A DNA stretch of 64,000 nt, from assembly GCF_036711975.1 (NCBI RefSeq), contig NC_091966.1, positions 2,177,501-2,241,500 on the forward strand. The letters are read 5' to 3'. Made by a program: the position numbers and the translations under genes. The notes under the pieces are model-generated. The model was not told where the DNA came from, did not search any database, and saw only the letters and a program-made list of their open reading frames with translations. The stretch comes from Onthophagus taurus. Taxonomy: Eukaryota > Arthropoda > Insecta > Coleoptera > Scarabaeidae. This document shows positions 24,901 through 60,560 of this stretch, piece by piece (positions within the stretch are counted from its first letter, which is position 1; each line of letters opens with the position of its first letter).

Positions 24901-27900
24901 GTGCGGCTAAACCGGAATACTTCTAGTTCTCGGTCTAGTGTTAGTTCTAGTATTGCACAAGCACTATCACTAGAACTAACACAAAACCTAGACCTAGAAT
25001 CATTCGGGTTTAGCCATCTTGAGAGACGTGAGACTAAACCCGAATGTTTCTAAGTCTAGTGTTAGTTCTAGTTTTAGTTCAATAAAAGTATAGAACAATT
25101 TAACGCTGAATAACAACTGAAAGTAGAGCTAACACTAGCACTAGAACTAACACTAGAACTTGAGACATTCGCATTTAGCTTTCTTAAGACGGCTAAACCC
25201 GAACTTTTTTTAATTCTAGGTTTAGTGTTAGAATTACTGTCCTTGATTTATACATTGTATAGACAACTCGGGGAATACCCCGAGTTTATCGAAATGAAGC
25301 AAGAACAACCAAAGTTAGATTCTATCTATGAGCACTATCATTTATATTGAAATACACTGATGTATTAAATAGATAATTATAAATAGATTATTGAGGTAAT
25401 ACTGTGTTAAATAAATTTTAACTTATTAATATAATTCTAGTGCAGAATAATAATTAACTAATATATTAATACTAAACCTAAAAATAGAATGTTTTAATAA
25501 GAAGAAGACCAGATACTGCTAGCAGAAGGCTTGATACTATTTGCAAAAGACTAGACGTTATTAATAGACACTGCTACTAGAAGACCAGATACTGCTGCCA
25601 GACGACAGATATTGTTTATTCAAGACTAGATACTAATGACAGAAGATCATATCCTGCTGGCAGAATACTTGATACTATTTGTAAAAGATTAGACATTGCT
25701 AATGGAATGCAATACACTATTTGCGGAAGACTTCATACCGCTAATGAATGATTTAGTTCAATAAAAATGTACAACAATCTAGCGCTGAATAACAGATAAA
25801 ACTAGAACTAACACTAGCACTATCACTAGAACTAACACAAGACCTAGAACTAGAATCATTCGGGTTTAGCCGTCTTGAGAGACGTGCGACTAAACCCGAA
25901 AGTTTCTAGTTCTAAGTCTAGTTTTAGTTCTACTATTACACTAGCACTATCATTAGATCTAACACAAGACCTATAACTAGAATCATTCGGGTTTAGCCGT
26001 CTTGAGAGACGTGCGGCTAAATCCGAATGTTTCTAGTTCTCCGTCTAGTGCTAGTTCTAGTATTGTACTAGCACTATCACTAGAACTAACACAAGACCTA
26101 GAACTAGAATCATTCGGGTTTAGCCGTCTTGAGAGACGTGCGGCTAAATCCGAATGTTTCTAGTTCTAGGTCTAATGTTAGTTTTAGTGACAGTGGTAAG
26201 TAGCGCTAGCTAGCATAAGATGTTGCATATTTTTATTGCACGAAAACTAGAACTAACATTAGACCTAGAACTAGAATCATTCGCGTTTAGCCGTCTTGAG
26301 AGACGTGCGACTAAACCCGAAAGTTTCTAGTTCTAAGTCTAGTTTTAGTTCTACTATTACACTAGCACTATCATTAGATCTAACACAAGACCTATAACTA
26401 GAATCATTCGGGTTTAGCCGTCTTGAGAGACGTGCGGCTAAATCCGAATGTTTCTAGTTCTCCGTCTAGTGCTAGTTCTAGTATTGTACTAGCACTATCA
26501 CTAGAACTAACATAAGACCTAGAACTAGAATCATTCGGGTTTAGCCGTCTTGAGAAAGGTGCGGCTAAATCCGAATGTTTCTAGTTCTAGGTCTAATGTT
26601 AGTTTTAGTGACAGTGGTAAGTAGAGCTAGCTAGCATAAGATGTCACTATGTTGCATATTTTTATTGCACGAAAACTAGAACTAACATTAGACCTAGAAC
26701 TAGAATCATTCGCGTTTAGCCGTTTTGAGAGACGTGCGGCTAAACCCGAATGCTTCTAGTTCTCGATCTAGTGTCAGTTCTAGTATTGCACTAACACTAT
26801 CACTAGAACTAACACAAGACCTAGAACTAGAATCATTCGGGTTTAGCCGTCTTGAGAGACGTGCGACTAAATCCGAATGTTTCTAGTTCTAGGTCTAATG
26901 TTAGTTTTAGTGACAGTGATAAGCAGAGCTAGTTAGCACAAGATATCACTATGTTACATATTTTTGTTGCACTAAAACTAGAACTAAGATACTAGAACTA
27001 GATACTTTCTAGTTCTAGGTCTAATGTTAGTTCTAGTTTTGCACTATCACTAGAACTAACACAAGACCTAGATCTAGAATCGAGACGCGAGGCTAACCCC
27101 GAATGTTTCTAGGTCTAGTGTTAGTACTAGTTTCAGTTCAATAAAATATACAACAATTTAACGCTGAATAATAACTACAAGTAGAGCTAACACTAGCACT
27201 AGAACTTGAGACATTCGGGTTTAGCCTTGCGTTTTCTAGCTTTAGTGTTAGAACTACCGTCCTCGATTTATACATTGTCTACACAACTCGGGGAATAACC
27301 CGAATTTATCTATGACCATGAAATAGAGCAAGTTGAGGAACAACCCAAGTTAGATTTTATCTTTGAGCTCTAACATTTATATTTAAATACATCAATGTAT
27401 TAAATAGATAATTATAAATAGATTATTGAGGTAATAATGTATTAATTAAATTTTAACTTATTAATTTAATTCTTACTTTCTTTGCTTTGTATTTTCGATC
27501 CAAAAGCAGTAATAATAAAGTTAGTTTTAACGGTGGTTAATTGAGTTTCGTCCCGTTTCCAAACCCCGTTTTCTTCTTCGTTTCTCGCAAAAGTAATTGA
27601 TTTGATCTTTCCTCCTTTAACTTCAACGCTGTGGGGCGATTGGAACCCGACTAATTCGCATTTTTCTTCAATTGCCAAAGAAACTTCTTCGGGAACAGCT
27701 CGAATATTTGTAAAACCAGCTCTAAAGATGACATAAACCTTTTTAGCCCCGCATCTCAACGCGGAAGTGGCACAATCAAACGCGGTATCCCCCGAGCCGA
27801 TTACAACAACGATTCCGTGTAATTTTGGAAGTGTTGGTTCCATTAAAGAGGCGCATCTACACATGTTGGGTTTGCTGGCTTCTGTTACTTTGGGTAGGAA

Positions 27901-37474: not shown

Positions 37475-40400
37475 TTAATGAAATTTAAGCGAAGTCCATA
37501 CTATGGCATTAGGATGAACCAACGCTCCAATTTCGCAATTTACCGTTCTCGATCTACCATTTATTACAAATAGGGCTTCACTTGCGGGTGTTACCATGTA
37601 TTGTCCGAATAACCCTAAAAAAAGAAAAACATTTTAATCAATTTTAATTAATTTCAAATTTTTTTATTACCTGAACCACTTATGGGGCGATTAGCATTTC
37701 CCCACTTTGTGAGTTCTGAAGGGACTGGTTTTCCAACCCCCGTTATAATTTCAACTTTTCCCGTCAATAAATTTAAGAATAAAATGTCTTCTTTATCTTG
37801 AGCCGTGGCATAAATATCGTAACTGTGCGTAGTTTGACTTGGATAAAATGTAATATCAGAAATATTTAAAGTGGTTTTAACATCAAACGAAAACAATAAC
37901 CCAGTAGCTGTAATTAAATTAAAATTTATTTTTACGATTCATATTTTTAATTAAACCTTACGAGTTATCTCTTGTACAATTAAAGTTGCTCCATTCTTCG
38001 TTCGATCTAAAGTGACCAATTTACGCGAATCAGGAGATATGAAAGGAACTCCTGGTAAAGTTGGTTTTGTAGCAATAACCGTGTCTGTTAAATAATCGAG
38101 AAGTAACTGTCCCGTGGGTCTGTTTGTAACTGGTTCTAAACATTCCATAATAACCAAACCGTCTACAATAAAGTTTTTATTAAAAATAAAATTAATAGTT
38201 AAGATTTATCGTTTTACATAGTGCTGAAAATTGGATTTGTTCAGGGACGCAATTGTATGGAGTTAAATCCACCGATCTTGTATATCTTAAGTTGACTAAA
38301 TCAAGTTTGTACAAGCCTCTTTGATTGGTGTGGGTGACATAACCATATTTAAAACTGTAGTGGGATAATTCCTATAGCGATATAAATAATTTTTTTAATG
38401 AATATTTTCTTAGTTGGTGTATTGAAGGGTTTAAAAAAGTTACAAGTCTCTTTATCTCTATCTATTTATCTTGGTTCAACGTTTTTGCATTTTGGCCATT
38501 CTATAATAGTGTGTCCATAGAGTCATGGTGCACTTTTAACAGGTCATAGAATAGACAAAGCAAGATAGAAATGTGAAATTTTCACCAAATAAATGGAAAA
38601 CTCTCTAAATTTTCGTAATATGATGTGATATCACGAACTGTGCAGCAGCGGATCAGCCGCAATATGGACGGTACAGAGGAGGGACGTAATTAAAACACGA
38701 TAATTACTTAAGGGACTACTATATGCGTTAAGGAGTGATAGTGGAGGAAAAATGGGGCGGAGAATAATATCTATAATCGAAGTGGGATTACCTATCTAAC
38801 ATAAATAACCTTCAAAAGTTATAAGAACGAAGTTGAAATACACGCCGATGGTAAATGGGACATCTCCAGAGTCGATTTTTAACTTTCTGAAGGTATGCCG
38901 GAATGATGGACATCTTTAAATATGTCCTTGGACAGAGATTTCACCTCAGCTTGATAGAAGCCTGAATAGATTATGGGCGTGATATGGAGCCAAGTGAGTT
39001 CATTGGGTATGACTGGTGTGTATGGTGGAAGGAGCAGAAAGGTTTGGGGCACCTTTAAAAATCGGTCCAAAATCCAACAACATTTGCAGTACCCCGACTT
39101 GCAACATTAGTTTAGAAAGGAAGAAACACCAGTAGATATTGTACTTGAAATAGTTATGAAAGCAGGTGTCTAGCAAATGTGCAAGAGAAGTTTAAGAGAA
39201 ATTCCAACATTTGCAATGCCCCGAAGTAATGCCTTAATGAACGATTTCCAAGGAGTGGCAGGGAATTGTTTCTGACGATCGGAGATGGAAGCGCCATGTG
39301 TTAATTTGCTTGACTTGCTATGGAGTTAGATTTTCTAAAGTAATTTTAAGATTACTTTCGATTGTCTTGCTTTCGGATTGGGTTACTTTTTGATTCAGCT
39401 AGATTGGGGTTGAGTTGCTATGGGATTGAATTTATTTTAAGATTGAGATGATTTGTTTTGGAGTTTTGTTAGGTTCGTTTGGAGGTGGCTTGGTGCTTTG
39501 GAGCACCTTGCGAGGAACTAGAGTATAGCTTTACATGTTTAACTAACTTCCTTTGCAGTTGAGTCACTTTGAAGTTAGATTGGTTTACTTTGGAATTGAT
39601 TGCTACTGGTTGAGTTGCTTTAGGGTTGGCTTTTTTTGCATAGGGTCTGACTGGTTTAGAGATAGACATTTAGGCAAATTAGATGGTTTAGAGAAACTTA
39701 ATCCAACTACGTGTGAAGTTTGAATTACAATTTTGAGGTTTACTTTGCTTGATTTCGGGTTAGGTTGCTTTGTGGCTGAGTTGCTATAAGATTGAGTTGC
39801 TTGTTTTGTATTTGGAATGACTTGGGTTCTTGTAGAATTGGGTTGGATTTAGGTGGTTTCTAGTTGGATTACTTTTTATGGGTTGCTTTGAGTTTGCTTG
39901 GCTTGTTTTTGGATTGAGTTGCGTTGGCTTACTTTGGGTTATTGGAAAATATAATAAAAGTTACAAACAAGTTACTTGTGTTGTGGTTAACTTATTATGG
40001 GTTCCTTTGAATTTGCTTGGCTTATTTTGGGATTAAGTTGACTTGTGGCTGAGTTGCTGTGACGTTATGTAGGCTTACTTTGGGATAGTTTGTGAGCATC
40101 TTTAAATTTGGGTTGTTATGGTATTTTGATGCATCTGGGAGCAAAAATGTTACAGACCATTATGTTAAGGATACAATTTGCTACAACTTTTGTAGTAAAA
40201 GTCTTTTTGTATTATGCTCCGGATACCGTTTTTTTTCAAAACTCTTGTAATTTTCATATTTTTGAAAAAATCTCCACATTGATGCATCTGGGAGCAAAAA
40301 TGTTACAGACAATTCTGTTAAGGGCTTAATTTGCTACAACTTTTGTGGTAAAAGTTTTTCTGTATTATGCTCCGGATACCGTTTTTTTTTTCAAAACTCT

Positions 40401-43400
40401 TGTAATTTTCACATTTTTGAAAAATTCTCCACATTGATGCATTTGGGAGCAAAAATGTTACAGACCATCTGGTTTGAAGTTGGACTCACATAGCAACTTA
40501 ACCTAACTACGTAACTAGTTTAAATTACATTGAGGTTTGATTAAAATTCGTTGAATTTGAAATACTTTGTGGTTTTGTTGTTTAGCATTTTGATTGATTT
40601 GCTAGATTCACTATTGCATAAATAGCATCACGGAGTATATATCAGAAAGGCAATATTAGTTCAGTTTTTGGTGAAGAAACATCAGAAGACACCTCAAGAT
40701 ATACTTGAAATAGTTATGAAAGCAGGTGTGTAGCAAATGTGTAAGAGAAGTTTAAGAAAAGTAAACGCAGTTTTGACTTTTTTTTTGAAAGTTTAGGAGT
40801 TAGATCGATCAGAGTCAAGGTTGGAACTAGTGATGGAACGGATAGTGATTTTGCGAAAAGTCAGATAACGGATATTCTGCATACCCTTCCATTCATAAGA
40901 TATGTCAACTTATTCGGATCCAAGATACAAAATGAACTTTTTTGATGCTGATTTAATTAACGAAGCAACTCTAAAAAAAGGATACTTTACTTAATAATTG
41001 GTAATATTTCCGCAAGGATCCTTCAAGAAATTAATTTTATAGCGAATTTTAAATATTATCGATGAAAATTGCAACATCGAAAATTTTATCAAAACTTCAA
41101 ATATTGTTTTCTCAAAAACTAAAAGTTATTTTTCAAAACGTGTTGGTTTATTGGAAAGAGGACACTCTTATTAATACTTTGGGAAATTTTCATAGTCGTA
41201 TTCTAAGAAATCGATTTTATACGAATTATTAAAATTAAATCGGCGAAAATTGCAAAATACGAAAAAATTGTCGGTTATTTCAAAAATTTATTTCTCAAAC
41301 ACTAAAAGCGATTTTTCAAAACGGCTTGTTGCATTAAAAAGAGGATACTTTAATTAATAATTGGTGATCTTTCCACAAGGATCCTTCAAGAAATTAATTT
41401 TATAGCGAATTTTGCAAGTTATCGATGAAAATTGCAACATCGAAAATTTTATCAAAACTTTAAATATTGTTTTCTCAAAAACTAAAAGTAATTTTTCAAA
41501 ACGGGTTGGTTCATTGGAAAGAGGACACTTTTATTAACACTTTGGGAAATTTTCATACTCATATTCCAAGAAATGGATTTTATACGAATTTTTAAAACTT
41601 AAACGACGGAAATTGCAAAATTCGAAAAAAATGGCGATTATTTCAAAAATTTATTTCTCCAGAACTAAAAGCGATTTTTCAAAACGGCTTTTTGCGTTAA
41701 AAAGAGGATACTTTAATTAATAATTGGTGATATATCCACAAGGATCCTTCAAGAAATTAATTTTATAGCGAATTTTAAATATTATCGATGAAAATTGCAA
41801 CATTGAAAATTTTATCAAAACTTTAAATATTGTTTTCTCATAAACTAAAAGTAATTTTTCAAAACGTGTTAGTTCATTGGAAAGACGACACTTTTATTAA
41901 CATTTTGGGAAATTTTCATACTCGTATTCTAAAAAATCGATTTTGTACGAATTATTAACATTTAATCGGCGAAAATTGCAAAATTCAGAAAAATATTCGA
42001 TCATTTCAAAAATTTATTTCTGAAAAACTAAAAGTGATTTTTCAAAACGGCTTGTTGCATTAAAAAGAGGATACTTTAATTAATAATTGGTGACATTTCC
42101 ACAAGGATCCTTCAAGAAATTAATTTTATAGCGAATTTTGAAAGTTATTGATAAAAATTGTAACATCGAAAATTTTATCAAAACTTCAAGTATTGTTTTC
42201 TCAAAAACTAAAAGTTATTTTTCAAAACGTGTTGGTTTATTGAAAAGAGGACACTCTTATTAATACTTTGGGAAATTTTCATACTCATATTCCAAGAAAT
42301 GGATTTTATACGAATTTTTAAATCTTAATCGGCGAAAATTGCAAAATTGGAAAAAATTGTCTATCATTTCAAAAATGTTTTTCTCAAAAACTAAAAGCGA
42401 TTTTTCAAAACGGCTTATTGCATTAAAAAGAGGATACTTTAATTAATAATTGGTGATATTTCCACAAAGATCCTTCAAGAAATTAATTTTATAGCGAATT
42501 TTGAAAATTATCGATGAAAATTGCAACATTGAAAATTTTATCAAAACTTTAAATATTGTTTTCTCAAAAACTAAAAGTTATTTTTCAAAACGTGTTGGTT
42601 TATTGGAAAGAGGACACTCTTATTAATACTTTGGGAAATTTTCAAACTCATATTCCAAGAAATGGATTTTATTCGAATTTGTAAAACTTAATCGGCGAAA
42701 ATTGCAAATTTCGAAAAAATTGTCGATCATTTCAAAAATTTATTTCTCAAGAACTAAAAGCGATTTTTCAAAACGGCTTTTTGCATTAAAAAGAGGATAC
42801 TTTAATTAATAATTGAAGATATTTCCACAAGGATCGTTCAAGAAATTAATTTTATAGCGAATTTTGCAAGTTATCGATTAAAATTGCAACATCGAAAATT
42901 TTATCAAAACTTCAAATATTGTTTTCTCAAAAACTAAAAGTTATTTTTCAAAACGTGTTGGTTTATTGGAAAGAGGACACCCTTATTAATACTTTAGGAA
43001 ATATTTCAAACTCATATTGTAAGAAATCGATTTTATACGAATTATTAAAACTTAATCGGCGAGAATTGCAAAATTTGAAAAAATAGTCGATCATTTCAAA
43101 AATTTATTTCTCAAGAACTAAAAGTGATTTATTAAAAAGAGGATACTTTAATTAATTATCGAAAGTGATAACAGCGACAGTTCTGTTACTAATGAATGTG
43201 ATGATGAATTACAAGCGAGGTGAAGAAAACTAGACGAAACTGCAACAAGACATTTTATATATCGTATTGGGATTGTTACAATGAGGTTGCTAAAGACAAA
43301 TCTGATATAAATAAAGTTGTATTAAATGAAAAAAGTCCTATTGGGGTTGAACTTAATTATTATCTGCAGTATCCAACATCTAAAAGAGACACTAATTCCT

Positions 43401-46400
43401 GTGAATGGTGAAGTAGTGAGTAATAGGTTTTTAATATCCGGTCAACGGCGGATAGTAGCCGGATATCCGTTCCACCACTAGTTGGAACCTTTGAAGATAC
43501 AACTTCGAAGTCTAAGTTTGTATAACTTTAGGTTATAATACAAATAATTTGCTGATTGACTAACCTCCTCCTGGAACTTCAAGGTCAATGTAATGAGGAG
43601 TTCAAAGGATCGAACTTATGGACAGTCACTTATAAAAAAGTACTATTATATCGGATAATCTTTCTTAAATGCTACTTTGACAGAAGAATGATTATCTATA
43701 ATAATGGATTGTGCATGTAGTGAATAGAGTAGTGCCATAGGGGTCTATATCGAGATTGATCAATATATGACGAAGTGCTAATTCTGAGGCAAGATTCAAC
43801 ATTGATTTGGTATGGCGATGACTTGGCAGGTGGTAACATGGTGTTTGGATGGACGAAAGATGACATGTGTGCTAGTTTAAAATAAATATAGCAAGAGATA
43901 ACTATCAGGATGGCATAACAAAGAGTTCACAGAGCACCAAATCAAAATGAAACAACATATTTTAAAATGCCATTGTCTCTTTAAGGCAATGAAATCCCTT
44001 TATGGTTCAACTTAATTAGGATTGAGTTAGTTGGGTTGGGTTCTGAATAATTCTGAGAAATTGGTTGATTTAATGACCACCAATATTAATGAAGGTTCAA
44101 TAAACTCTGCCAAAATTATCACAAACCCTGCTACAATTACAAATGATTCGTGAAAGTTTCTTTTTCCGATGCAGACTTTATTGTGGGTGGATGAGATATT
44201 GTCTCGATTTATGTAACTCGTGTTAAAACCTGACTCAGCTCAAATTATTGCCGAGTTGGGACAACAAGGATTGAGACGAGGCAAGCAGCATTTCGATTAC
44301 TTCGCGTGCTTTCGGCGAGAGATGGAGTTAGCGTAACAAAGTTCTACACGTTGAAACACGCATCACGATATTGTGTGGATTATATTATAGTGCGAAAAAT
44401 ACCACAACATTTTGTTATGTTTTGATATTGGTAATAACAACGATATTTTGACTCTGATAAGAATAAATAAAAACCAAAGTAAATTAAAAAGATTAAAAAC
44501 GAAGCTTTTTAAACCCTTCAATGATTGTAGTACCACTTTGTTTAAGTGGTTTTGTGAAAATGGGAACAAAAACTGACCTGATTTGGCGAAGGTATAAATA
44601 AACCTCTAACTAAATCGAATTGTCCGTCAATTGGTTCTGGATGAACGGTGTGATGTTTCCTCTTTTGACCGGCGTCCCTTATGACCTAAAAGAAATTTAA
44701 TTTCAAAAACTCCTTTAAATAGATAAAAATACATAAATAATTTATTACTCAATAAACTTTCGTTATGTTTCTACAATTCCATTTATAGAAGTCAAAGATA
44801 AAAAAAAACGATAAAAAAAAGCCTCCGTTCCTGGTTCGATTCATGCAAATCTGCGTTTAAAGACCATTTCGATTCGAAACAGCGCGCAGATTCCCCCTTT
44901 TCGGTTTTATCCCTCCCGATCCCAGGCATGGGTACTTCCGATATCGGAACGAGAAAGAATCTTTTTTTTTTCGGTTCTCTCTAAAACGTAATCGTTGCCG
45001 GGTACCGTAAATCCCAATTTTTCGATCCGGTACACGCATACAAACGTAAACAAACTAAACGTCGCGTATTATAAAGCGAGTTTGGTCGCTAAAAAGGCAA
45101 TAACTCACTTCCCGGCGCTCTATCTCGACGGGGGACAATGGCTGAAAAATAGCTGGGCCGTTATCGGGGGATTTGCGGCCAACACCTCACGAGCAAAGGG
45201 GGGCTAAAATACTGTGGGGAGGTTAGCGTTTATCCGAGGTCTATTCTATGGAAGTGCAATTTCGGCATCGTCGATCACGTTAAGTGTTGGAACCGAGCCG
45301 GGGATGATATTGGACGGTTAGTTAAGAGGTTGAGTTACGTTCCAAAACTCGCTTCCTTCTTAGCCAACTCTCTAAGGTTTAAGTATTTACCGCTTACCTG
45401 TATTGTTTTAACGCCCGTGTTATTTAATGAACGCCAATTTAACACCCAGATTTGATCTAAATGTTGAACGTAATGAAGATCTACCGGGTATTTATCCGTA
45501 GCTACAACCTAAAAGGAAACAAAGAGTAAAAAAGAAAACGTTTTGGGATAAACTTACATCTACAACAACCATTTGGATCTTGGAAATGATTAAAATTCTA
45601 TCTCGGTCTGGTTGAGTTGCGTAAACGTATCTGTTGGCGACGTTTACCGCTTTACCCCATGTGCATTTAACACCTTTATCACCACAAACGTATTCCTTAA
45701 AAAAAGATATTATTAATTATTAGTACTATTAAAATTAAAGAGGTAAGAATAATGTTAGAGAAAAGTATCGCTTCGCCGGTTAACAATGACTTGATAGGAT
45801 ACGAAAGAAGAAAAGGGTAGAAAAAAAATCAAATTCAATTAAAAATTGATCGGAACGCCGGAGGGTCGTTCGTCTAACAAGGCGAGGCCCCCGTTACGTG
45901 ATCCCGTGTACACAGTGCAGGCGCCCCAAGCGTATTTGAGGTTACGTTTCCGGCGTTCGTCGTGGTATCGACCGCCACACCGTTCCACCGAAGCTACCAT
46001 CGTCATCGCCCAGCTGCCGCCGCGCGTCTCCAGCACGCTCCAGCGCCCATCCAATTTGCTACCTACACTTGATTACCAACCGGACTGAGATTTGTATCCA
46101 GATCACTTTCAATTTCAATCAATGTGAACTAAATCATTATTAATCCTTTACATATGTATGTATTCAAATTTCATGTCTTTAATCTTTTAATACACACTAT
46201 CACTTAGGTTATTGTGCTATTTCTAATTTTAAGCCCCTAAAATCACCTAGAGGGGATAGAATTCTGCCTATTTTTCTACAAAAAGGCATAGAAGACTTGC
46301 TCCCAGTAATAATATCCCTATATAAAGCAAGCTATAGCTTTAGCTATATACTGTAATAAAATCCCTGTTTCCGAAGAAACGAAAAAAAAAGACTAATTAA

Positions 46401-49400
46401 ATTTAAGAAATTTACAATTTTGGATTAGACTATAAGTAGTTAGTTTTGTTATGATTTTCATTTAGTTTTAAGCTTTGATTATATACATACAGTGCGCGGC
46501 AAAATTATGGAACATATTCAATAAATTAATAATAAATTTTTTTTTGCAAAAATGCCGAAACGGGTCAATTTTGGTTAATCATAACACACATTATGACACC
46601 ATATTCACTTCCTGATAATCATTTTTTTACGAGTTATGACGTCATCGACATTTTTTTTAAATGGCACCATATGCATTTGTTTACAAAATCTGAAAGTATA
46701 TATTTCTCTGCGACTAACGATGTAAATATCGATATGGGTTACATAAGGAAAATTTTGAGAAAATTAGCTTTAAAGGTACAAATTTTATTTTTTTTTGTGA
46801 ACGTAAAAATAGCATTACCCATGGGTAACCATGGAAACGCTTTGTTTGGTTTTAATAATGTCTATTCAAAAACGTCAAAATTAGTTTAGTGAGTGTTTAA
46901 TTGAATTGAAACAATTTTTATAGCGATTAATTCCTGTATTTTTGCATTGTTTTCTGTGTTGTAATTGTTTGTTTGTATTTTTTTTCTGTTTTATGTTGTT
47001 TAGTTTTGTATTAGTTATTTTACAAATTTTATTTTTTTTCGAACAAAAATATAGTATTACCCTTGCGTAACCATGTACGTTGTCATGGTTCTTTAATTTT
47101 TTATTCTCTATTAAAAAACACTAATAATTTAAGTTTTAATGTGCAAGGTTTTAAGTTTTAATATTTAAAGTTATTTAATGTCCGTAGAATATGAATTATG
47201 TTATAAAAAAGAAATAAATTCTGATTCTAATCATTTAATAAATTGTTCGAAATGCCCTCCACCCACTTCTTGACAATAAGCAAACCTATTCATACATTCT
47301 TTCAAAGTATTATAAATAAATTGCGGACTAATATTACTAATTTCACCGCTAATACAATTTTTTAATGCGTCTACATTGAGTGGTTTCTCAGCGTACACTT
47401 TTGATTTTAGATAACCCCATAGAAAAAAATCAAGGGGTGTAAGATCTGGGGATCTGGGGGGCCATTCTATCGGCCCGCGTCTGCCAATCCACCGCTCAGG
47501 AAAACTATTATTCAAAAATTCGCGAACAGGATGTGCAAAGTGCGGAGGTGCACCATCCTGCTGAAACCAAATATTGTCGTCCAGTAAGTTGGGGTTATTA
47601 TTATTTGGGAATGCTTCTAAAAGGACAGGCATCAGTTCATTCCTCAAAAACTCCAGATATCGTTGACCTGTCAGAATTTGTTCAAAGAAGAAAGGGCCAA
47701 TGATTTTATTGTGAATTATGCCTGCCCATACATTCACTTTTTGAGGGTATTGGGTATGTACCTCGCTTATCCAATGAGGATTTTCGTTACTCCAGTATCT
47801 GCAATTTTGTCGGTTTACTGTGCCATTCAGGCAAAATGTAACTTCATCCGAAAATAAAACGTTGTAAATAAAGAGTGGATTACGGTCACATCGATTCTGC
47901 ATTGAGTTCTTGCACTAACTGCACTTTGTAGGGATGGTACCTCTCTGCTCGTAGCACACGTAGTACAGATCGCTGAGAAACTTGATGATCCGCTGCAATT
48001 TGTGTCGAATTACTATGGGGATCATCTTCAACAGCTAACAAAATATTAAGTTTCACATTTTCGTTGATTTTAGGACGTCCAGCATGTGCAATGTGCTTAA
48101 CATGTCCAGTTTCTCTAAATTTCTTGTCAATTTTGCTAACTGTTGATCTACTAATAACTCTGTCAGGGTACTTTGCATTAAACAAATTGCATACCTCTTG
48201 TTGTGTTCGGGTTTTATCTCCACATCCAATAAGAATTAAAATTTCTATGCGTTGGGTTTCACTTAAATGAGCCATAATTATTTTAAAATAAATACGTAAC
48301 AACAAATGCTCAAAAATAAAAACAAAACAGTAACAAATATTGAACAAAACTGGACTAATGAATACAGAACACGGCAAAAAATAACAACAAATAACAATCT
48401 CAATCAGAATATAACGCAAAATAACTAATACAAAACTAAACAATATAAAACAGAAAAAAAATACAAACAAACAATTACAACACAGAAAACAATGCAAAAA
48501 TACAGGAATTAATCGCTATAAAAATTGTTTCAATTCAATTAAACACTCACTAAACTAATTTTGACGTTTTTGAATAGACATTATTAAAACCAAACAAAGC
48601 GTTTCCATGGTTACCCATGGGTAATGCTATTTTTACGTTCACAAAAAAAAATAAAATTTGTACCTTTAAAGCTAATTTTCTCAAAATTTTCCTTATGTAA
48701 CCCATATCGATATTTACATCGTTAGTCGCAGAGAAATATATACTTTCAGATTTTGTAAACAAATGCATATGGTGCCATTTAAAAAAAATGTCGATGACGT
48801 CATAACTCGTAAAAAAATGATTATCAGGAAGTGAATATGGTGTCATAATGTGTGTTATGATTAACCAAAATTGACCCGTTTCGGCATTTTTGCAAAAAAA
48901 AATTTGTTATCAATTTATTGAACATGTTCCATAATTTTGCCGCGCACTGTATAATATGGATTGAGCCAACAAGAGAGATAGCTTGCGCAAGGTGATCGAA
49001 CCGAGATAGACATAGAAGCGTACTGACATATAATGGGCGTGCGTTAATTTATAAGATAAAAAACTAGCAATTAGAAGTAACATTTATAATACTTACAAGT
49101 GATGTGAAACTGTATTATCGCGAACTTTGCACACGAAACAATACATTTTTAAACATAACGGTGTGACTGGCTGTGACACAACAAAACGATAAACGTCAAA
49201 TGGAAGAGGTTTGACACTTTTGTGCGCATGCGCCCGTCTGTTTAGTACCGTTTTATGTCTATCTTTGTTACACTTTCACATTATCGCTTTCCATCTGCGT
49301 CTATTCACCTTGAGCCACATTTTTGTTAGTAGATATATTCAGTTAGCTCAATCCATATTATATATAATCAAAAGTTTTAAGAAAAATTATTACGATGTGA

Positions 49401-52400
49401 AAGAAAAAGGTAATTCATTGAAGTCTATGACATTCAAATTTTGACCTTGACATTTACATTTTGACAGGTATTGATTTTGGCGACTTTTCAGACGATTTTC
49501 GATTCTAAAACCATGCGAGATCGATAAATCGTGTCGATTTAGCCCTTAGGCCGCAATTTCATCCATTTCTGAATCATTTTATATATCTAAATTCCATTGT
49601 TTTTCTTTCCAAACTTTAACATAAAATTACGAATTCCTCGAAGGAATTTGACACCCGAAAGCGCGATTATCTAAAAGAACGAAAAATTAGCTACAAAATT
49701 ACAAAATCTTAATCAAATTTAAAGTTTATTAATAATTTCGAATATTTTCAAAGTTGATAGTTATTTTCTTTAAAAAAATCAATCATTTTGGCCACCTGTG
49801 TAATTTATAATTCCCGCCATTTTATCAACCAATCAGAGAGCCCAGATTCAAACTGAAGCGACCAAATTCGGATATCCAAGAAGCCTTTGTCCAAAAAGGG
49901 TATATAAGGCCGCGCAAATTTGACACCGAGAGAGTTCAATTTTGGCTAGAGCGAAGCGTTGTTGAATCTACGTCAATTTAACCTAAAAATTTCTAACCTA
50001 AGTTTGAACTTAGAATTTTTTTTTGACAACTCGATTTACTTTTATCTAGTAAAAGTAAACAAGTGTTTCTAAATTATCTGCGAAGAAATCGAAACCATAC
50101 CTGAGATCGAGTCCAATGTTCCATCCTGTTCCCGAAAGACCCGAGAACTAAATTTCCCGAGAATCCTAAACTTCTAACACCGAAGAACATCCTACACTAT
50201 GGAGAAAAGTAAAGGTGGTCTGCATACCTAAAGGTGGTAGGTGTTCAAACGTCTAACTGATAGCCTAACTTCATTTCTCCTCAAAGGGATGGAAAAGGTA
50301 ATCGATCAATACCATCCAAGTCAACATGCTTATCATAAAGCAAAATCAAAAAGTACTGCTCTCCATGCTTTGACAAGCACTTTAGAGGAGACAATTGCAA
50401 CCAAAGAGATAGCCCTATGTGCTTTGGAATGAGGAGAATAGTCTAAACGTAAAAGATATACATCCGTCGACAATCAAATGGTGTATAGCCATGTTGAAAA
50501 GTCGGCAGATCACAGCCAGTCGGAGGCGAATCGTTGACTATTAAGGCGCTAAAAGAATGTCCCCAAGGGGAAGTGCTCTCACCTCTCCTATGTTGCCTGG
50601 TAGTTGATGATTTGATGAACACCTTAACAAAAAATGGATTCATGATTCAGGGGTATGCTAATGACCTGATAATCACAATCCGAGGTAAATATGACACAAT
50701 CATAACATAATTAATGCAGAAAGCCCTAGTACTTACCAGCACTTGGTGCCGAAGCAATGAACTCAGCATCAATCCAAAGAAAATTGAAATAGTCCCTTTC
50801 ACTCGGATAAGGAAGCTACAATTGAGAGCACCCTCCATTGAAAGCAGAACTATTAACCTCAAAACAGAAATTAAATGCCTAGGGGTAATACTAGATAGTA
50901 AATTAAACTGGTACTCCCACATAGACAAGGTTAGGAAAATGGCGATTTTGGCTAACCAGATCTGCCGGTCTTAAACCACGAATGGCAGACAGCTCAAAAT
51001 CCTCAAGGATCCATGTCGAAATCACTTGATTGAAATTAAAACGAACCTTATACCGACAGAATACAATTTCAACCAGCCGTATAAGGTCATATTTAGAGGC
51101 AGGGATGATTGGACGAAGGATGGGCCTCAAGTAAAAAGACGAGCCTCTTTAACCAAAGAGGTTTTATGCCTCATCAATCAAAGGGGACCTATGGTTTCTT
51201 GACCGGCCATGCACTCTTAAAATACCACCTCTTCCATATTGGAGAAGCTGAGGATCAAACTTGTCGACTTTGCAACGACGAGTCAGAAACAGCTGAACAT
51301 ATACTGTGCAATTGCGCCGCAAGAAGCCGTGTAAGACACAAAATTTTCAATTTCAATCAATGTGTACTAAATTATTATTAATCCTTTACATATGTTTGTA
51401 TTAAAATTTCATGTCTTTATACACGCGCACGTACTATCGGTTAGATTAATGTATATTTTTATTGAATTAAAAGTAGAACTAACACTAGATCTACAACTAG
51501 ATTTAGACGCACGGCTAAACCCGAATGTTTCTAGTTTTAGGTCTAGTGTTAGTTCTAGTTTTAGATATGATTCAGTCTTAGATTGTTGTGTGTTTCTATT
51601 GAAGTAAAACTAGAGCTAACACTAGACCAAGAACTAGAAAGTTTCGGGGTTAGCAGTGCGTCTGAAGTTCTATATTTTTATTAAACTAAAAGTCGAACTA
51701 ACACTAAACCTAGAACTAGAAACATTCAGGTTTAACCGTCTTAAGAGACGCACGACTAAATCCGAATGTTTCTAGTTTTAGGTCTAGTGTTAGTTATAGT
51801 GCTGGTGTTAGTTCTAATTTTAGATATTATTCAGTCTTAGATTGTTGTATATATTCTAGTTTTAGTTGTTATTTAGTGTTATATTGTTATATATTTTTAT
51901 TGAACTAAAACTACAACTAACACTAAACCTAGAACTAGAAACTTTTAGGTTTATTAACTTATTAAATTTGTATTAAGTCTCCATCAACCTTGTGCCAAGA
52001 GAACTCCGCGTAATCCCAACACTATCTTTTCATTAACGTTCAACATGTTTTATCAAGGCTGCATTAAGATAACATCATACTTCTATTGCAGAGTCCAACA
52101 AACGAACATCCAAGTTAAAGCGCCATTTTGAGACAAAACACTGTAAAATGTAGTGTAGCGGAAACCTTCGGCGAAATTTTAATCAATCCTGCAGCCAAGA
52201 TAATGATAGGAGATAAAGTGAAACAAACTTTTGACCGCGTTCCTCTCTCAAATAATACAGTTCATCGACGAATCATTGATATGTCTAATAATATGAAACA
52301 GATGTTATTATCTGATATTACTCAAAGTCGTTATTATGCATTCCAAGTCAATGAATCCACTGATATTGCAAATTTTGCAAATCTTATGGCGTTTGTTAGA

Positions 52401-55400: not shown

Positions 55401-58400
55401 AAATTTTGTTTTTGACATTTCTCTGCTTTGATTTTTTGAAAATGATGAAGTGTTGAAGAATCGGTGGAGATTTAATACAGCAATGATATAATAAGGTTGG
55501 TGCAAATTTGATTAAATCTTGTTGCGCCCTTGATAGAGATTGGATGCGAAGAAATTTTAATGTAGAAAAGAAGACTTGATGTAGACTCGTTGCATTAATA
55601 ATGGAGAGTTGATGCAAACTTGATGTATCTTAAATTAGTCTTGATACAAATTTCCTTTTTTGTAGAACTGTTGGAGACTTGATGCAGGAATAATAGAGGT
55701 TTGGTGCAAACTTAAATCTTAAATTCCTCTTTAAAATGGTATATAATACACAATAGTATAATATTATTTGGAAAAAGATCGGGAAGATAAACTTATTTTT
55801 TTAGCATAGCGCAAAAATGTCTAAATACCACATAAACTTTAAAAATTTCTGTTGGGGTTATTTCTGAAGATGGGATCGTTATGTCAGATTGAAGTTTAAA
55901 GATTCCTCTTTAAAATGACATATAATACATATTAGGTTAGATAATGAAAATTATTTGGAAAAAAATCGGGAAGATAAACTTGTTTTTCAGCATAGCCCAA
56001 AAATGTCTAAATACCACGTAAACTTTAAAAATTTCTGATTGGCTTATTTATGAAGATGGGAAAATGATCTTTATGTTAGATTGAAGTTTAAAGATTCATT
56101 TTTAAAATGATATATGATACATATTAGGTCGGTTAATGGAAATTATTTTGAAAAAAAAGGATAGATAAACTTGTTTTTTAGCGTAACGCAAAAATGTCAA
56201 ATACCACGTAAACTTTAAAAATGCGTGATGGGGTTACTTCTGAAGATGAGGAAATAATCCTTATATCAGATTGAAGCTTAAAGATTCCTCTTTAAGATGA
56301 TATACGATAGATATTGGGTTAGATAATGAAAATTATTTGGAAAACGAACAGGAAGATAAACTTGTTTTTTAGCATAACGCAAAAATCTCTAAATACCACG
56401 TAAACTTAAAAAAATCCTGATGGTGTTATTTTTGAAGATGGGGAAATAATCCTTATACCAAATTGAAGCTTAGAGATCCATCTTTAAGATGATATATGAT
56501 AGATATTGGGTTAGATAATGAAAATTATTTGGAGAACGAACAGGAAGATAAACTTGTTTTTTAGCATAGCGGAAAAATGTCTAGATATCACATAAACTTT
56601 AAAAATTCTTGACTGGGTTATTTATGAAGATGGGTAAATGATCTTTATGTTAGATTGAAGTTTAAAGATTCCTTTTTAAAATGATATATGATACATATTA
56701 GGTTAGATAATGAAAATTATTTGGAAAAAAAACGGGAAGATAAACTTGTTTTTTAGCATAACACAAAAATGTCTAAATACCACTCAAATTTTAAAAATTC
56801 CTCATGGGGTTATTTACGAAGAAGGAGAAGTAATTATATACCAGATTAAAGCTTCAAGATTCTTCTTAAAATGGTGTATGATACACATTAGTTAGTTGAT
56901 AAAAATTATTTAGAAAATTACAAAAACCTTAGAAACGCTTAGATTAGAAACAACAAGCACCGCGATATTCTCGATTTGACATGGACAAACTCGTGATAGC
57001 TACAAATACTTTTACCCTTATGTTACAAAATGAGCCATTCTTTTCAGACTCACCACTTGAGTCAGCAGATTTTGTATTAGGCATTGTCAGCTGTTTTCTT
57101 TTCATTCAAAAAAGAGCAATCACTTACTTTTTATTTGCAATAAAAAAGTTAGAAAGGTATCAACTATTTAATATTTAAGACTCTAAAGATGTTAAAGCTT
57201 CGATATGAGCAATTTAAAACGGTCTATGTACAGTGAATTTCACTTAACCCCTTCCCTATCAGAATTAAATTTTATAAAACGTCATTTATCACCCAGCGGT
57301 ACTTTTAAGTCTCACTTAAATTCTAATAATAATCACGTTAGTTTTAATTAGCTGAACGTATGTATATTTTGCGAGACTTTTGAGTACTGGTAGACAAAGG
57401 GTTTAGATGTAATATACAAAAATATATTTCCATAGAAACCAGGGCGTATCTACTTACTTTTTTCCACATAAAATGCAACATGTCAATGTATGTAATTTGA
57501 CATTACAGTAAAAGCTCGATATAACGGCTAGTAGGTGGTGGGTAACGCTAGTTATCATGAAATATCACTATGTTGCATATTTTTATTGAACTAAAACATA
57601 GTTTTACACTAGCACTATCACTAGAACTAACACAAGACCTAGAACTAGAATCATTCGGGTTTAGCCGTCTTGAGAGACGTGCGGCTAAACCCGAACGTTT
57701 CTAGTTCTAGGTCTGGTGTTAGTTCTAGTTTTGCACTAGCAGTATCACTGGAACTAACACAAGACCTAGAACTAGAATCATTCGGGTTTAGCCGTATTGA
57801 GAGATGTGCGGCTAAATCCGAATGTTTCTAGTTCTAGGTCTAGTGTTAGTTCTAGTTTTGCACTAGCAGTATCACTAGAACTAACACAAGACCTACAACC
57901 AAAAAGTATCGGGTTTAGCACCGTTCTAGGTGTAGTGTTAGTTCTAGTTTTATACTAGCACTATCACTAAAACTAGCACAAGACCTAGAACTAGAATCAT
58001 TTAGATTTAGAAGCACGTCTCTTAAGACGGCTAAACCCGAATGTTTCTAGTTCTAGGTCTAGTGTTAGTTCAATTTTTGCTCTAGCAGTATCACTAAAAC
58101 TAACATAAGACCTAGAACTAGAATTATTATCTATATAGAATACATTAAAGAAAAAAACATTGAACTTTGCGCAGTTAAAATCACAGTACGGAATTCCATT
58201 TTTTTAGTAGTGTATCACTCACCAGATGGAAATTATAGACAATTTTGGGAAAAATGGAAGAAATTTTACAATTCGTAATAGGAAAACAAAATATAAAAAA
58301 TCAATGAAAAATCAATAATTAATGAGTAGTTGTTAGCTATTATGTTAGAATATGGGCTTAAACCTATTTTTAATCAACCATCAAGGGTAAACGGAAGCAG

Positions 58401-60560
58401 ATATGTAGATAACATCTTCATAAACAGATTCGCAATAGTTGCAATGGATAGAACATTAAACTAGTATTTGGGTGATCATCTGGCCCAAGAAGCAAGCATC
58501 GTTCTTGAGCATAAAGAAACAACTAAGAAAACAATTAAAACAAGACTGATAAATAAGGTAACAGTAGAACAGTTCAAAAATCTATTAAAAAGAAGTGATT
58601 GGACAAGAATAAAAGATCAAAGAGCTGATGCCCAAACCAGCTATACTGAGTTTCATAGCATAGTTACATCGTGTTATGAGACGGCTTTTAGTGAAATCAT
58701 AAAAAAAGATAAAACAAATACAATTTATACAAAAATGGATTCGGACGAACTTAGAAGAATGAAGGATAACCTGCATGCAATTTTCACTGTAGCAGAAGTT
58801 ACGAAGGATAGTAAATTCAGGGATCTGTATAAGGCTAAAAAGAAAGATCTCAGAAGACTAATAGATGAAACAAAAAAAGAATCTTACAAAGATTATATAA
58901 ATAATTCTGAAAATAAGATAGCCGCTGCATGGAATGTTGTGAAACAGGAAACCGGAAAACTGGTGCACATCTAGAGGCAAATGACCTAAACGACTACTAT
59001 CTACAAATAGCTATGTTGCATTTTATGTGGGACAACACAAGTGCATAGTAGTTTCGTAACTATGGTTACTTCATTCCTGTATTGTGAGTTATAATAATAA
59101 TAATACTTTATTCCCCCCATTTTACCAAAAAAGCGTAGAGTACGTCAATTTAACAATAATTACATTGCAATATAATACACATTGAGTTCAAACATTAAAT
59201 TGGAAAAACATGTCAATGGTATACATCGGATTTTCCGTGACAATAGCTCTCAGTCTTCTCCGGAATCCTGGAACTGGCAGGATCTTTGTACCTTCCGAAA
59301 TGTGATTGAAGATCTTGATAATCTGGTACAGAGCCGTCTTCTGAATCTTAGTAAGGTGCGCTTTTGGTGGCACCAGATAGCACTTCACCTTCCCGTGCGT
59401 GTTTCGAGGATATTTTTTGAAAAATTCAAAGTAATTCTTCCTAACCAATACAGCACATTCCAGAATATAAATTCCATACAAGGTACGTATTTTATAGTCC
59501 TTAAAGTAACTTCTGCAGCTATCAGTATTTTTTAGACCAAAGATTGCTCTTACACACCTCTTCTGTAGTATGAAGATTCTATCTATACCAACACCACGGC
59601 CCCAAAAGACAACTCCATATCTTAGCAAGGAATGGACATAAGCATAATAGGCACTTAATGCTGCCTCAATGCCAGCTGATCTGGAAATAATCCGAATGGC
59701 ATAGGAGAAATGACTGATCTTGCCAGCAAGGAAATCAATATGATTGGTCCAAGACAGTCCAGGATCCATTTTCCAACCCAGAAACGAAATCTCTTCAACA
59801 TTGGCAATCTCAGTACCCCGATACCTCGCCTTGATCTGGTCAGAGCATAAATGATAATTAACAATTTTCGTTTTTTTTGTACTTAACTTTATGTTGTGCG
59901 CTTCAAACCAAACCACAAGTTTATTCAGATCCATAGTAAGTGATTTCTGGATTTCATAATCAGTGCTACACCTCGCCACAGTCGTTGTGTCATCCGCAAA
60001 CATTATCGTAATGTTGTGCGTTACACGTGGTAAGTCATTCACATACAGGAGGAACAATAGAGGACCCAATATGGAACCCTGAGGTACTCCCAGCTTGATT
60101 TCTCTCCAAGCTGATCTTATTTCTGTTCCCTGTTCATTGTGGGCAACTACACATTGTAACCTCCCTGATAGATAGGATTTCATCCATGACAAGCTAACAC
60201 CTCTAAAGCCAAGTCTCTCCAACTTGGTTAAAAGGATTAAGTGATGTACACTATCAAAGGCTTTTGTATATGAGCGCCCGGGTGCGGAAATCGGTGCGGA
60301 AAATTAAAAATGCATTTTAATTTAAACAAAAATGATAACTTTTTTAGCATTTGCACCCCCCGGTAGCGCCGCCCCTGTATATGAAATTCCCTGTATATCA
60401 TAATTAAAGAAATCTTACCTATACTAGTACCTTGACACATATAAGCTCCAGTATCAGCAAAAGAAATCTTCCTAATTTTCAAAGCAGTTCCATTTCCAAC
60501 TATTTGATATTTATGTCCATTATCCATTCTAAGAGACTCATCGTTTTTTAACCATTCAAC
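37475..60560 (-). CDS. FSTL5: Follistatin-related protein 5-like gene, ten 3'-most coding exons
   Basis: Exons 60560-60419, 54612-54559, 54494-54373, 45695-45558, 45508-45398, 44685-44578, 38371-38218, 38162-37962, 37907-37671 and 37614-37475 (TAA). All have GT..AG sites and joining phases: 1407 nt, 468 residues. The first is most of an immunoglobulin domain (VEWLKNDESLRMD, then SFADTGAYMCQG). After it comes a long region that in FSTL4/5 is predicted to be a beta-propeller: KCTWGKAVNVANRYVYATQP, YPVDLHYVQHLDQIWVLNW, FDLVRGLFIPSPNQ, FKYGYVTHTNQRGLYKLD, SPDSRKLVTL, GNANRPISGSGLFGQYM, and the end HPNAIVWTSLKFH. It is probably a secreted glycoprotein. The Kazal, EF-hand and first Ig exons must lie beyond 60560. 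Three introns of 6-9 kb are filled with repeats. Orthology is recalled, not searched. Confidence 0.78.
38390..40100. other. FSTL5-like intron, first part, low-complexity and old repeats
   Basis: No coding remnants recognised. At 39330-40100 the plus strand is a run of irregular phrases such as GGATTGAGTTGCTTT and TGGGTTACTTT that restart every 15-40 bp. An ~85-bp segment (TACTTGAAATAGTTATGAAA) at about 39116-39205 is repeated in direct orientation at 40668-40757. Confidence 0.45.
40127..40470. repeat. ~154-bp tandem repeat, 2.2 copies
   Basis: TGATGCATCTGGGAGCAAAA restarts at 40127, 40280 and (as CATTTGGG) 40435, so the period is 153-155 bp. Copies 1 and 2 differ mainly by small changes and A/T-run length. 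Confidence 0.85.
40828..43480 (+). mobile_element. Non-autonomous hAT element carrying a satellite array, with perfect 8-bp target duplication
   Basis: The ends are inverted: left TAGTGATGGAACGGATA, right TAGTGGTGGAACGGATA (reverse complement). The 8-bp direct repeat GTTGGAAC flanks both sides (40820-40827, 43481-43488), the hAT target length. At 43310-43415 (plus) VLNEKSPIGVELNYYLQYP and SKRDTNSCEW resemble the end of hAT transposases, the dimerisation domain with its 'YL..P...R..DPL.WW' pattern. Almost everything between is the 363-bp tandem array. The rest of the transposase is missing. Confidence 0.85.
40979..43160. repeat. 363-bp satellite, about six copies, each a dimer of ~180-bp halves
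   Basis: The landmark GAGGATACTTTAATTAATAA begins at 41341, 41704, 42067, 42430 and 42793. Partial ones occur at about 40979 and 43139. Four successive spacings are exactly 363 bp. Within each unit a related half starts with GAGGACACT (for example 41521), 180 bp after the first, leaving 183 bp. The halves share phrases such as GAAAATTGCAA and TTCTCAAAAACTAAAAG, followed by TTTTTCAAAACG. This is a higher-order, two-monomer repeat. Confidence 0.92.
43489..44570. other. FSTL5-like intron, nothing recognised
   Basis: Right of the hAT element up to the exon at 44578. No repeats of note, no transposon ends, no coding remnants that I can support. Confidence 0.4.
44820..45390. other. GC-rich, CpG-containing island in the intron between exons 44685 and 45398
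   Basis: Base composition shifts from the AT-rich surroundings to many TCG, CGG and CCG words (for example CCCGATCCCAGG, CTATCTCGACGGGG). No ORF keeps a family resemblance. Similar islands lie at 45780-46090, 54640-55110 and 60600-61030, all beside exons of this gene. They look like single-copy DNA, possibly conserved regulatory sequence. Confidence 0.4.
46100..46430. mobile_element. Detached LINE 3' tail
   Basis: 46107-46190 (TTTCAATTTCAATCAATGTG, TTTACATATGT, AAATTTCATGTCTTTA) matches 51346-51420 at the end of the LINE at 50220-51410. So this is the 3' terminal piece of the same family without coding sequence. A short AT-rich flank follows. Confidence 0.5.
46491..48949 (-). mobile_element. 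DD41D (rosa-like) Tc1/mariner element, nearly full length, long identical TIRs
   Basis: Length 2,459 bp. Ends CAGTGCGCGGCAAAATTATG on both sides (inverted), TA at 46489-46490 and 48950-48951. The inverted arms extend about 530 bp (46491-~47025 and ~48415-48949). A 297-bp stretch translates to the same 98 residues on both arms, so they are almost identical. Between the arms is the transposase on the minus strand. The arms also hold long T/A runs. It lies in an FSTL5-like intron. Confidence 0.9.
47231..48272 (-). pseudogene. DD41D transposase, interrupted by one frameshift/deletion
   Basis: The start codon at 48272 opens MAHLSETQRIEILILIG, a helix-turn-helix N-terminus with RSTVSKIDKKFRETGHVK, the linker HAGRPKIN, and a second HTH (QIAADHQVSQRSVLRVL). 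Around 47886-47902 the frame ends (QELNAESM, stop) and resumes in another frame at NRCDRNPLF; a few tens of bases seem missing there. Then come FSDEVTF (first D), WAGIIHNKIIGPFFFE, FQQDGAPPHFAHPV (second D), and SPDLTPLDFFLWGYLKSKVY. The D in LDF is 41 residues after the second D. The end GGGHFEQFIK is typical. All three catalytic aspartates are kept. Confidence 0.85.
48950..49365. mobile_element. Possible MITE adjoining the DD41D element
   Basis: TATAATATGGATTGAGC at 48950 is matched by its inverse GCTCAATCCATATTATA at 49345-49361. Shorter inverted matches occur inside (AAGGTGATCGAA region and CACCTTGAGCC). The left boundary abuts the right TA of the DD41D element. No coding remnants. Confidence 0.45.
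49826..49935 (+). promoter_or_regulatory. RNA polymerase II promoter-like sequence (CCAAT and TATA boxes)
   Basis: CCAAT at 49829-49833 (AACCAATCAG) is followed 68 bp later by GTATATAAGG (49900-49909). A purine-rich possible start site (GAGAGAGTTCAATTTTG) lies about 25-35 bp further on. The spacing is right for a TATA promoter. It is inside an FSTL5-like intron on the opposite strand and upstream of a LINE fragment, so it may be a transposon promoter. No tested start site is known to me. Confidence 0.45.
50220..51410 (+). mobile_element. Degraded non-LTR retrotransposon (R1/LOA-like RT), with deletions
   Basis: Plus-strand pieces in order: LTSFLLKGMEKVIDQYHPSQ with HAYHKAKSKSTALHAL (RT start); CPQGEVLSPLLCCLVVDDLM; GYANDLIITI (the usual YADD is YAND); LSINPKKIEIVPFTR; KCLGVILDSKLNWYSHID; then after a gap LTGHALLKYHLFHIGEAEDQ and CRLCNDESETAEHILCNC, a C-terminal CCHC-like finger. 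Stops and frameshifts abound. The 3' tail is shared with 46100-46200. Confidence 0.72.
51450..51960. repeat. Hairpin (TTTAGCC/GGCTAAA) repeat block in FSTL5-like intron
   Basis: Several diverged units with AACTAACACTAGACC, AGACGCACGGCTAAACCCGA and TTTCTAGTTTTAGGTCTAG, separated by ATTGTTGTATATTTTTATTG spacers. Same family as the POLR3K and DPYD intron arrays. Confidence 0.75.
52080..53230 (+). mobile_element. hAT transposase remnant (ZBED/SCAND3-like), degenerate
   Basis: Near 52100 is a broken BED-type finger (TSKLKRHFETKHC read across a shift). Then follow VAETFGEILINPAAKIMIGD, VHRRIIDMSNNMKQMLLSDI, YYAFQVNESTDIANFANLM (first catalytic aspartate region), WNRCVGISTDEARSM (second), and after frameshifts LSLQNKEISLFHVQDKVNAA and FASGLEKFDLNKQIKWITYP. 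Order and phrases fit DUF4371/hAT transposases. The longest open piece is 52128-52661. It is not active. The terminal repeats were not found. Confidence 0.75.
53640..54230. repeat. Inverted copy of the ~30-bp repeat family, followed by hairpin repeats
   Basis: 53650-54060 consists of CTTCTGCAAATAGTATCAAG-type repeats, the reverse complement of the family at 29890-31080. From 54060 to 54230 come units with TTTGGGTTTAGC, CTAGTGTTAGTTT and GACTAAACCCGAAG. So the same two families that alternate in the DPYD intron are again neighbours, in reverse order. Confidence 0.7.
54640..55110. other. GC-rich island next to exon 54559-54612
   Basis: CpG-rich words (GATGCCGGGCCTGCCGAGG, GGGGCGCGCCGGCG) stand in AT-rich surroundings. 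No family-like coding sequence or transposon ends. Possibly conserved intronic regulatory DNA of the FSTL5-like gene. Confidence 0.4.
55260..55720. repeat. Irregular 'GATGCAAACTTGATG' repeats
   Basis: Phrases such as TTGGTGCAAATTTGAT, TTGATGTAGACTCGTTGCA and TTGATGCAAACTTGATG restart every 30-60 bp. Apparent minus-strand ORFs here are chance. Confidence 0.45.
55720..56900. repeat. 191-bp tandem repeat, about six copies
   Basis: AAGATAAACTTG-type landmarks occur at about 55783, 55971, 56162, 56353, 56545 and 56737, so the period is 188-192 bp. Each unit also has GCAAAAATGTCTAAATACCA and a GAAGATGGG phrase, then TTAGATAATGAAAATTATTTGG. No conserved reading frame. Confidence 0.9.
57480..58135. 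repeat. Hairpin (TTTAGCC/GGCTAAA) repeat block
   Basis: Four to five units of the family in its longer form: CACTAGCACTATCACTAGAA, AGACCTAGAACTAGAATC, ATTCGGGTTTAGCCGTCTTG, then AGACGTGCGGCTAAACCCGA. It begins with the ATATCACTATGTTGCATATT phrase shared with the POLR3K and DPYD arrays. Confidence 0.78.
58120..58980 (+). mobile_element. LINE fragment: end of endonuclease and linker before RT
   Basis: IFLVVYHSPDGNYRQFWEK, then MLEYGLKPIFNQPSRVNGSR and YVDNIFIN are the C-terminal part of an APE-type endonuclease. 58468-58974 is a basic, helical linker (RDLYKAKKKDLRRLIDETKK). It breaks off before the RT domain. The neighbouring RT (59085-60272) is on the other strand, so the two are not one element in place. 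Confidence 0.65.
59085..60272 (-). mobile_element. 5'-truncated LINE: RT palm, thumb and 3' end
   Basis: Minus strand: KAFDSVHHLILLTKLERLGF, then an uninterrupted 344-codon piece. It has GVPQGSILGPLLFLLYVNDL, MFADDTTTV (catalytic FADD intact), FLGWKMDPGLSWTNHIDFLA and the C-terminal LLRYGVVFWG region, ending in a stop at 59188. Minus-strand AATAAA (plus 59108-59113) and (ATT)n (59089-59106) form the 3' end. The 5' break is in the middle of the RT, as expected of a truncated insertion. Jockey/CR1-like; the clade is uncertain. Confidence 0.82.

Follow-up and report, generated by a model that had tools for sequence, protein, structure and literature searches.

It is not settled how satellite DNA comes to occupy new sites in a genome. 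In Xenopus, miDNA4 is a Tc1/mariner miniature inverted-repeat transposable element (MITE) with an internal satellite, and in the published accounts compared here its DNA transposon ends bound either a single monomer or an array of variable number; loss of ends that leaves free satellite arrays is proposed there too (PMC12628747, PMC9659126). In Drosophila virilis, Tetris/TIR-220 is described, in the sections compared, as a non-autonomous element with 8–10 bp duplications and variable numbers of a ~220-bp repeat, for which longer satellite-like arrays occur and an autonomous partner was not found (PMC4079207). In the Pacific oyster, Cg_HINE Helentrons are non-autonomous elements reported to have spread satellite-like central repeats genome-wide (PMC7492417, as far as compared), with arrays of variable length reaching ~90 monomers according to the part of a second account that was consulted (PMC10048060). 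Here we analyzed a 64,000-nucleotide stretch of the scarabaeid beetle Onthophagus taurus (NCBI RefSeq assembly GCF_036711975.1, contig NC_091966.1, forward-strand positions 2,177,501 to 2,241,500; hereafter the window) and found that window positions 40828–43480, on the contig that we label C1, hold a non-autonomous hAT element of 2,653 bp with an internal array of a 363-bp unit. Very probably, a non-autonomous hAT family that was gutted by internal deletion has spread this satellite array by transposition.

A preliminary description of the locus had claimed an 8-bp duplication on both flanks of a pair of inverted ends, a short hAT coding remnant near the right end and about six copies of a 363-bp repeat, and all of these are borne out. 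The sequence GTTGGAAC stands on either side of the element, and its terminal inverted repeats (TIRs), TAGTGATGGAACGGATA and TAGTGGTGGAACGGATA, agree at 16/17 bases. Tandem Repeats Finder reports a period of 363 with 6.0 copies at 40972–43138 (91% matches, sub-periods 180/183), and alignment places the end of the array at 43159. The consensus of the 363-bp unit consists of two diverged halves of ~181 bp each and is thus a dimer. The right-hand coding remnant is confirmed, and a further remnant lies on the left. The array occupies one point within a transposase-derived remnant.

hAT elements have short TIRs that start with T/CAGTG or T/CAGNG, and their 8-bp duplications are biased to nTnnnnAn. 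The TIRs of the element are short ends of this type, and the target duplications of its family are 8 bp long with the same bias. The left remnant, which reads ..STYLDPRYKMNFFDADLTNEAT.. in the family consensus, became recognizable only after a consensus of copies was built; in that consensus both pieces flanking the array are transposase remnants. The right remnant is homologous to a stretch leading into the hAT C-terminal dimerization region. Both remnants align with a parent-like relic, L093 (C7:23386900–23389960), in which the homologous stretch continues into PF05699 (52.1 bits, cut-off 21.4), evidence that the family descends from a hAT transposase gene. In L092, a relative without the array, the coding sequence is uninterrupted where other copies hold the array. 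The short remnant peptides alone gave no Pfam match, and the upstream 197-aa frame of L093 gave no hAT match in Pfam or PDB (best E of 0.11 in the PDB sequence search, with no transposase). At 2,653 bp the window copy is far longer than the ~400 bp of a MITE in the strict sense (PMC9659126), and array-poor copies approach MITE size. Derivation of the monomer from the transposase segment that the array replaced was also considered and set aside: an ~18-bp alignment between the two beats all but 2/500 shuffles, which is only a hint, as other short matches had been inspected by eye first.

To place this copy within the genome (290.8 Mb, 33 contigs), we used the monomer and the two ends as separate queries. 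They gave 1,582 (monomer), 1,027 (left end) and 1,114 (right end) candidates, with 40 scored for each. The 90 fetched loci merged on coordinates into 80 places; these had the highest scores, were for the most part selected through their ends and are not a random sample, and the DNA search passes over very common words. The monomer and both ends are scattered across many contigs, and every fetched place that shows at least two of the parts keeps them in one orientation and in the succession left end–array–right end. Genome-wide counts were 252 exact occurrences for a 22-mer of the right end and, at up to 3 mismatches, 682 for a 28-mer anchor in the right remnant and 7,635 for one in the monomer (28-mer), while each of the three reversed controls gave 0. 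At 363 bp apiece, the 7,635 occurrences come to 2.77 Mb, or 0.95% of the genome, and to ~11 monomers per right anchor, a ratio that may be affected by unequal sensitivity of the anchors. The best degenerate exact pattern for monomers covered 79% of 215 and was not used.

The prediction made from the window alone was that many dispersed copies would share these ends, differ in the number of repeats between them and have individual 8-bp duplications; such copies were found. Both ends could be placed, each within 6 mismatches of 20, in 15/80 places, and these complete copies span 446 to 2,653 bp. Their flanking 8-mers agree at 7/8 or better in 11/15 copies and perfectly in 8/15, and all 11 are different. 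When we compared left and right 8-mers from different elements, 0/210 pairs agreed at 7/8 or better, and when the flanks were shifted outward by six different steps, 0 or 1 of 15 copies did so at each shift. The duplications follow the nTnnnnAn pattern, with T at position 2 in 12/13 and A at position 7 in 14/14 agreeing pairs. These target sites bear on a spread without transposition, in which segmental duplication or array-guided re-insertion of circular DNA would have carried the TIRs as passengers. Circular-DNA spread of satellites has been proposed in the literature, and arrays without ends start and stop at varied phases of the unit; however, 8-bp duplications with hAT base preferences at 11/15 complete copies argue against such a spread, which we consider highly unlikely.

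We then compared the boundaries between array and element among copies. The left junction, where GCAACTC meets TAAAAA, is present at or near that point in 46/74 visible left boundaries, and the right junction, where AATAAT meets CGAAAGTG, in 35/64 visible right boundaries; the other boundaries break at differing phases of the unit. The junctions were counted with loose patterns. As the places were mostly selected by their ends, these shares are not population estimates. Both inner junctions are visible in 24 places; in 18 of them the array length, in units, deviates from an integer by at most 0.06, with arrays of 1 to 8 units. Because the junctions are common to the base among many dispersed copies, the array predates the spread of the family. 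In favor of the family having instead arisen many times, with arrays captured by or born independently in array-free copies, array-free relatives do exist: L091, L092 and 16 matches in the genome to the parental segment whose place the array took, a count that omits array-free copies without that segment, such as L091. Recurrent capture would not, however, give base-exact junctions shared by so many copies, and we regard multiple origins as extremely unlikely.

To measure array length between paired ends, we started from 100 left junctions on C1 and C2, the first of a list of 330, and looked for a right partner on the same strand within 20 kb. An exact right anchor was found for 30, the terminal 22-mer only for 9, and neither for 61; three C2 left junctions past 24.2 Mb outrun the right-anchor list, and one of them was paired by the 22-mer. 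Across the 30 pairs, bounded arrays range from 0.64 to 33.83 units, and spacing is within 0.06 of a whole unit number in 17/30 (~3.6 expected), while a wrong-side control gave 5 chance pairs. One pair, C2:20516529 (27.45 units), is probably false, since the fetched locus, L049, shows the array breaking after 2.2 units. The element of ~34 units (C1:1424119–1436475) has 24 exact monomer matches between C1:1424749 and 1434886 and none from there to its left junction, so that ~4/34 of its units rest on spacing alone. Bounded arrays thus reach ~34 units, as compared with the long heterochromatic arrays of classical satellite DNA. Tandem arrays are difficult to assemble, and this range of copy numbers could be mainly an artefact of collapsed or expanded repeats, but short bounded elements (~1 to 3 units, 0.65–1.7 kb) with duplications already vary, and monomers inside arrays differ by several percent on average, which resists collapse; there is little chance that assembly accounts for the range.

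To ask how units relate to each other, we compared 215 full monomers (345–375 bp) from 67/80 places, dropping shorter and partial ones. Identity is 0.934 within an element and 0.907 between elements, and 500 label shuffles never rose above 0.912. The nearest relative of a monomer lies in the same element for 86/200 monomers (1.6% by chance). Three deletions (8, 8 and 13 bp) are each confined, among the monomers compared, to a single element in which at least two monomers carry the deletion, an outcome reached in 0/1000 shuffles. Inheritance of monomers by position was not seen in this comparison (first-first 0.885, mid-mid 0.912). The homogeneity within elements and the private deletions show that copy number has changed within lineages and that units turn over inside elements. 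Thus, of the two histories offered by the preliminary description, movement of the array together with the element is supported by the shared junctions, while growth of the array after insertion is supported as far as copy-number change within lineages goes, a change that may have preceded or followed the last jump. At C1:3252314–3252494, we also observed two exact monomer anchors 180 bp apart instead of the usual ~363, a single-half register inside an array.

Among 24 places selected by the monomer, the fetched sequence of 15 includes family end sequence, though no more than a fragment in several of them. Of the other nine (L008, L009, L016, L019, L020, L021, L024, L025 and L028), which lack a family end there, four are cut at one edge of the fetched sequence, and in L016 that sequence extends just 36 bp past the array. 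The many arrays that break at varied phases of the unit resemble truncated elements, which fits a loss of ends without proving it; arrays without ends may derive from such elements. These nine places, together with the fact that satellites can be transposon targets, would suit repeated insertion of hAT copies into a pre-existing dispersed satellite, but this is hardly credible, as the ends of the family flank the array and keep one order and orientation, the duplications are at the outer edges, the inner junctions are shared, and nested insertion should leave satellite outside the TIRs, where the outer flanks of the window copy hold none.

Another repeat, CTAGAACTA..., which is abundant, has inverted arms of CATTCGGGTTTAGCC and is itself partly in tandem, is present in the window at 11778–13173, 24573–27042, 51529–51940, 57599–58118 and 62767–62909. 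Its motif lies within 150 bp of 6/34 satellite-array boundaries without hAT ends and in 1/357 background tiles (Fisher p 1.8e-6), and the repeat may insert into or break 363-bp satellite arrays.

Several observations weigh against spread of the array by transposition of a single deletion-derived family. Four of the 15 complete copies have poor duplications (4, 4, 6 and 6 of 8), and agreement at 7/8 or better was reached once at two of the six outward shifts. A genome search with the joined flanks of the window copy gave no match across the junction; it returned only the copy's own two flanks, a 79-bp piece 1.6 kb upstream and four pieces of 39–49 bp. Within the fetched sequence, 14 complete copies, the window copy included, likewise lack a junction-spanning match. 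The relic L093 is decayed and carries no family TIRs in 3.06 kb (the best match has 4 mismatches and lies inside the coding part), and no intact autonomous copy with the family ends was seen among the 150 of 1,076 and the 150 of 2,552 candidates that were scored. Long hAT frames occur elsewhere in the genome. One further multi-monomer deletion is common to two elements, and 9/24 of the monomer-selected places have no family end. Finally, 61/100 left junctions have no right partner in the exact-match lists. The exact right pattern gives 355 places and the pattern at 3 mismatches 682, so that the lists hold about half of the right anchors; the 61 are therefore not all truncated, and truncation is inseparable from missed matches.

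Taken together, the best reading of these data is that the element is a deletion-derived hAT, mobilized in trans, that carries a satellite. In the mechanism that we propose, an internal deletion would have gutted the transposase gene of a hAT family, and a 363-bp (2 x ~181) tandem array would have become established at a single site in what was left of the coding sequence. A transposase from another element, presumably acting in trans, would recognize the TIRs and may also use the subterminal CGGATA motifs. The whole cassette with its array would then move to new sites and duplicate 8 bp each time, as the ends, duplications and dispersal of the copies show. Copy number would expand, contract and homogenize per lineage, with unequal exchange or replication slippage the most likely process, and where a copy has lost its ends, a short free satellite array would remain.

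Array repeats are reported to serve as extra transposase binding sites in Galileo, in the section compared (PMC4079207). This idea is not supported for the array described here, as the subterminal CGGATA motifs are absent from the monomer.

A more far-reaching version of the proposed mechanism is, in our judgment, doubtful. It holds that hAT copies deliver few units, that arrays grow to tens and that loss of ends frees the satellite, so that one family would be the main source of a satellite making up ~1% of the genome, and that the array-bearing form may have out-competed its array-free ancestors. The genome contains 682 right anchors compared with 16 matches to the parental segment; if true, out-competition would look as if the array helped transposition or persistence.

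Features of the hAT element and its target site, with positions in the window
Feature	Position	Strand	Basis or remark
Left copy of 8-bp target site duplication, GTTGGAAC	40820..40827	.	sequence read
Left TIR, TAGTGATGGAACGGATA	40828..40844	+	end recurs in many genome copies
Left transposase-derived remnant	40895..40971	+	stops at shared array junction GCAACTC
Internal tandem array, 6 copies of 363-bp dimeric unit and a short partial unit	40972..43159	+	
Right transposase-derived remnant, reading ESDNSDSS.. and, after a change of frame, ..VELNYYLQYPTSKRDTNSCEW	43160..43412	+	right boundary approximate
Right subterminal segment with CGGATA/TATCCG motifs	43413..43463	+	motifs not in array
Right TIR, TAGTGGTGGAACGGATA as read on the minus strand	43464..43480	-	sequence read, genome matches
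Right copy of 8-bp target site duplication, GTTGGAAC	43481..43488	.	sequence read

Outside the element, part of the left flank (40684–40760) is ~87% like 39122–39200, which lies 1.6 kb upstream. The window contains other tandem arrays at 61448–62726 (355 bp x 3.6) and 55763–56917 (192 bp x 6.1), and clean TIR pairs were established around none of the other window arrays, these two included. Overlapping open frames at 47231–48515 on the minus strand resemble a mariner-like transposase, with a weak DDE_3 match of 47231–47914 that is below the cut-off. Open frames at 15471–15935, 19322–21418 and 59188–60303 resemble reverse transcriptases of retrotransposons without long terminal repeats, as judged by eye.

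A connection between hAT transposons and tandem repeats has reportedly been drawn before: McGurk and Barbash in 2018 are said to have described hobo, itself a hAT, in tandem as a substrate for satellite birth, although in hobo whole elements reportedly lie side by side, with no array inside a single element. The clam Donax trunculus is said to have MITEs with internal tandem repeats, a likeness by title alone. In Tribolium castaneum, TCAST repeats are DNA transposon-related, TCAST10 is partly hAT-like and the TCAST1 monomer is 360 bp, but in the account as compared TCAST10 is classed as interspersed and not tandem, and no bounded array-carrying hAT element is described (PMC5844308). The word 'hAT' has 0 occurrences in the main text of PMC12628747 and PMC10048060 and appears in PMC9659126 in reference titles only. 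In the literature searched, mostly at the level of titles and abstracts, no hAT carrier of a satellite array is named, which is not proof of absence.

In the accounts compared, miDNA4 is the closest precedent, and Tetris and the oyster Helentrons are of the same kind. In contrast to the element described here, miDNA4 belongs to Tc1/mariner and not to hAT, and those accounts do not place its array inside a transposase coding remnant (PMC12628747, PMC9659126). Tetris is a foldback element with its repeats inside the inverted repeats, and only three structurally complete copies are reported in the part compared (PMC4079207), which names no superfamily for it, whereas the hAT element has a central array and short TIRs. 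Cg_HINE belongs, in the sections compared, to the Helentron rolling-circle class, and not to cut-and-paste elements with TIRs and 8-bp duplications (PMC7492417, PMC10048060). The hAT family has the defining arrangement of tandem-repeat-carrying non-autonomous DNA transposons, as its dispersed ends enclose an array whose copy number varies. Such transposons are already known, and the family described here is a real, abundant and clean hAT case that would add the hAT superfamily to the transposons carrying satellite arrays. Its well-defined ends, its hundreds of copies, its legible duplications and its arrays of <1 to ~34 units would make the copy number at delivery and later growth measurable in one assembled genome, and the family illustrates a route by which satellite DNA can spread.

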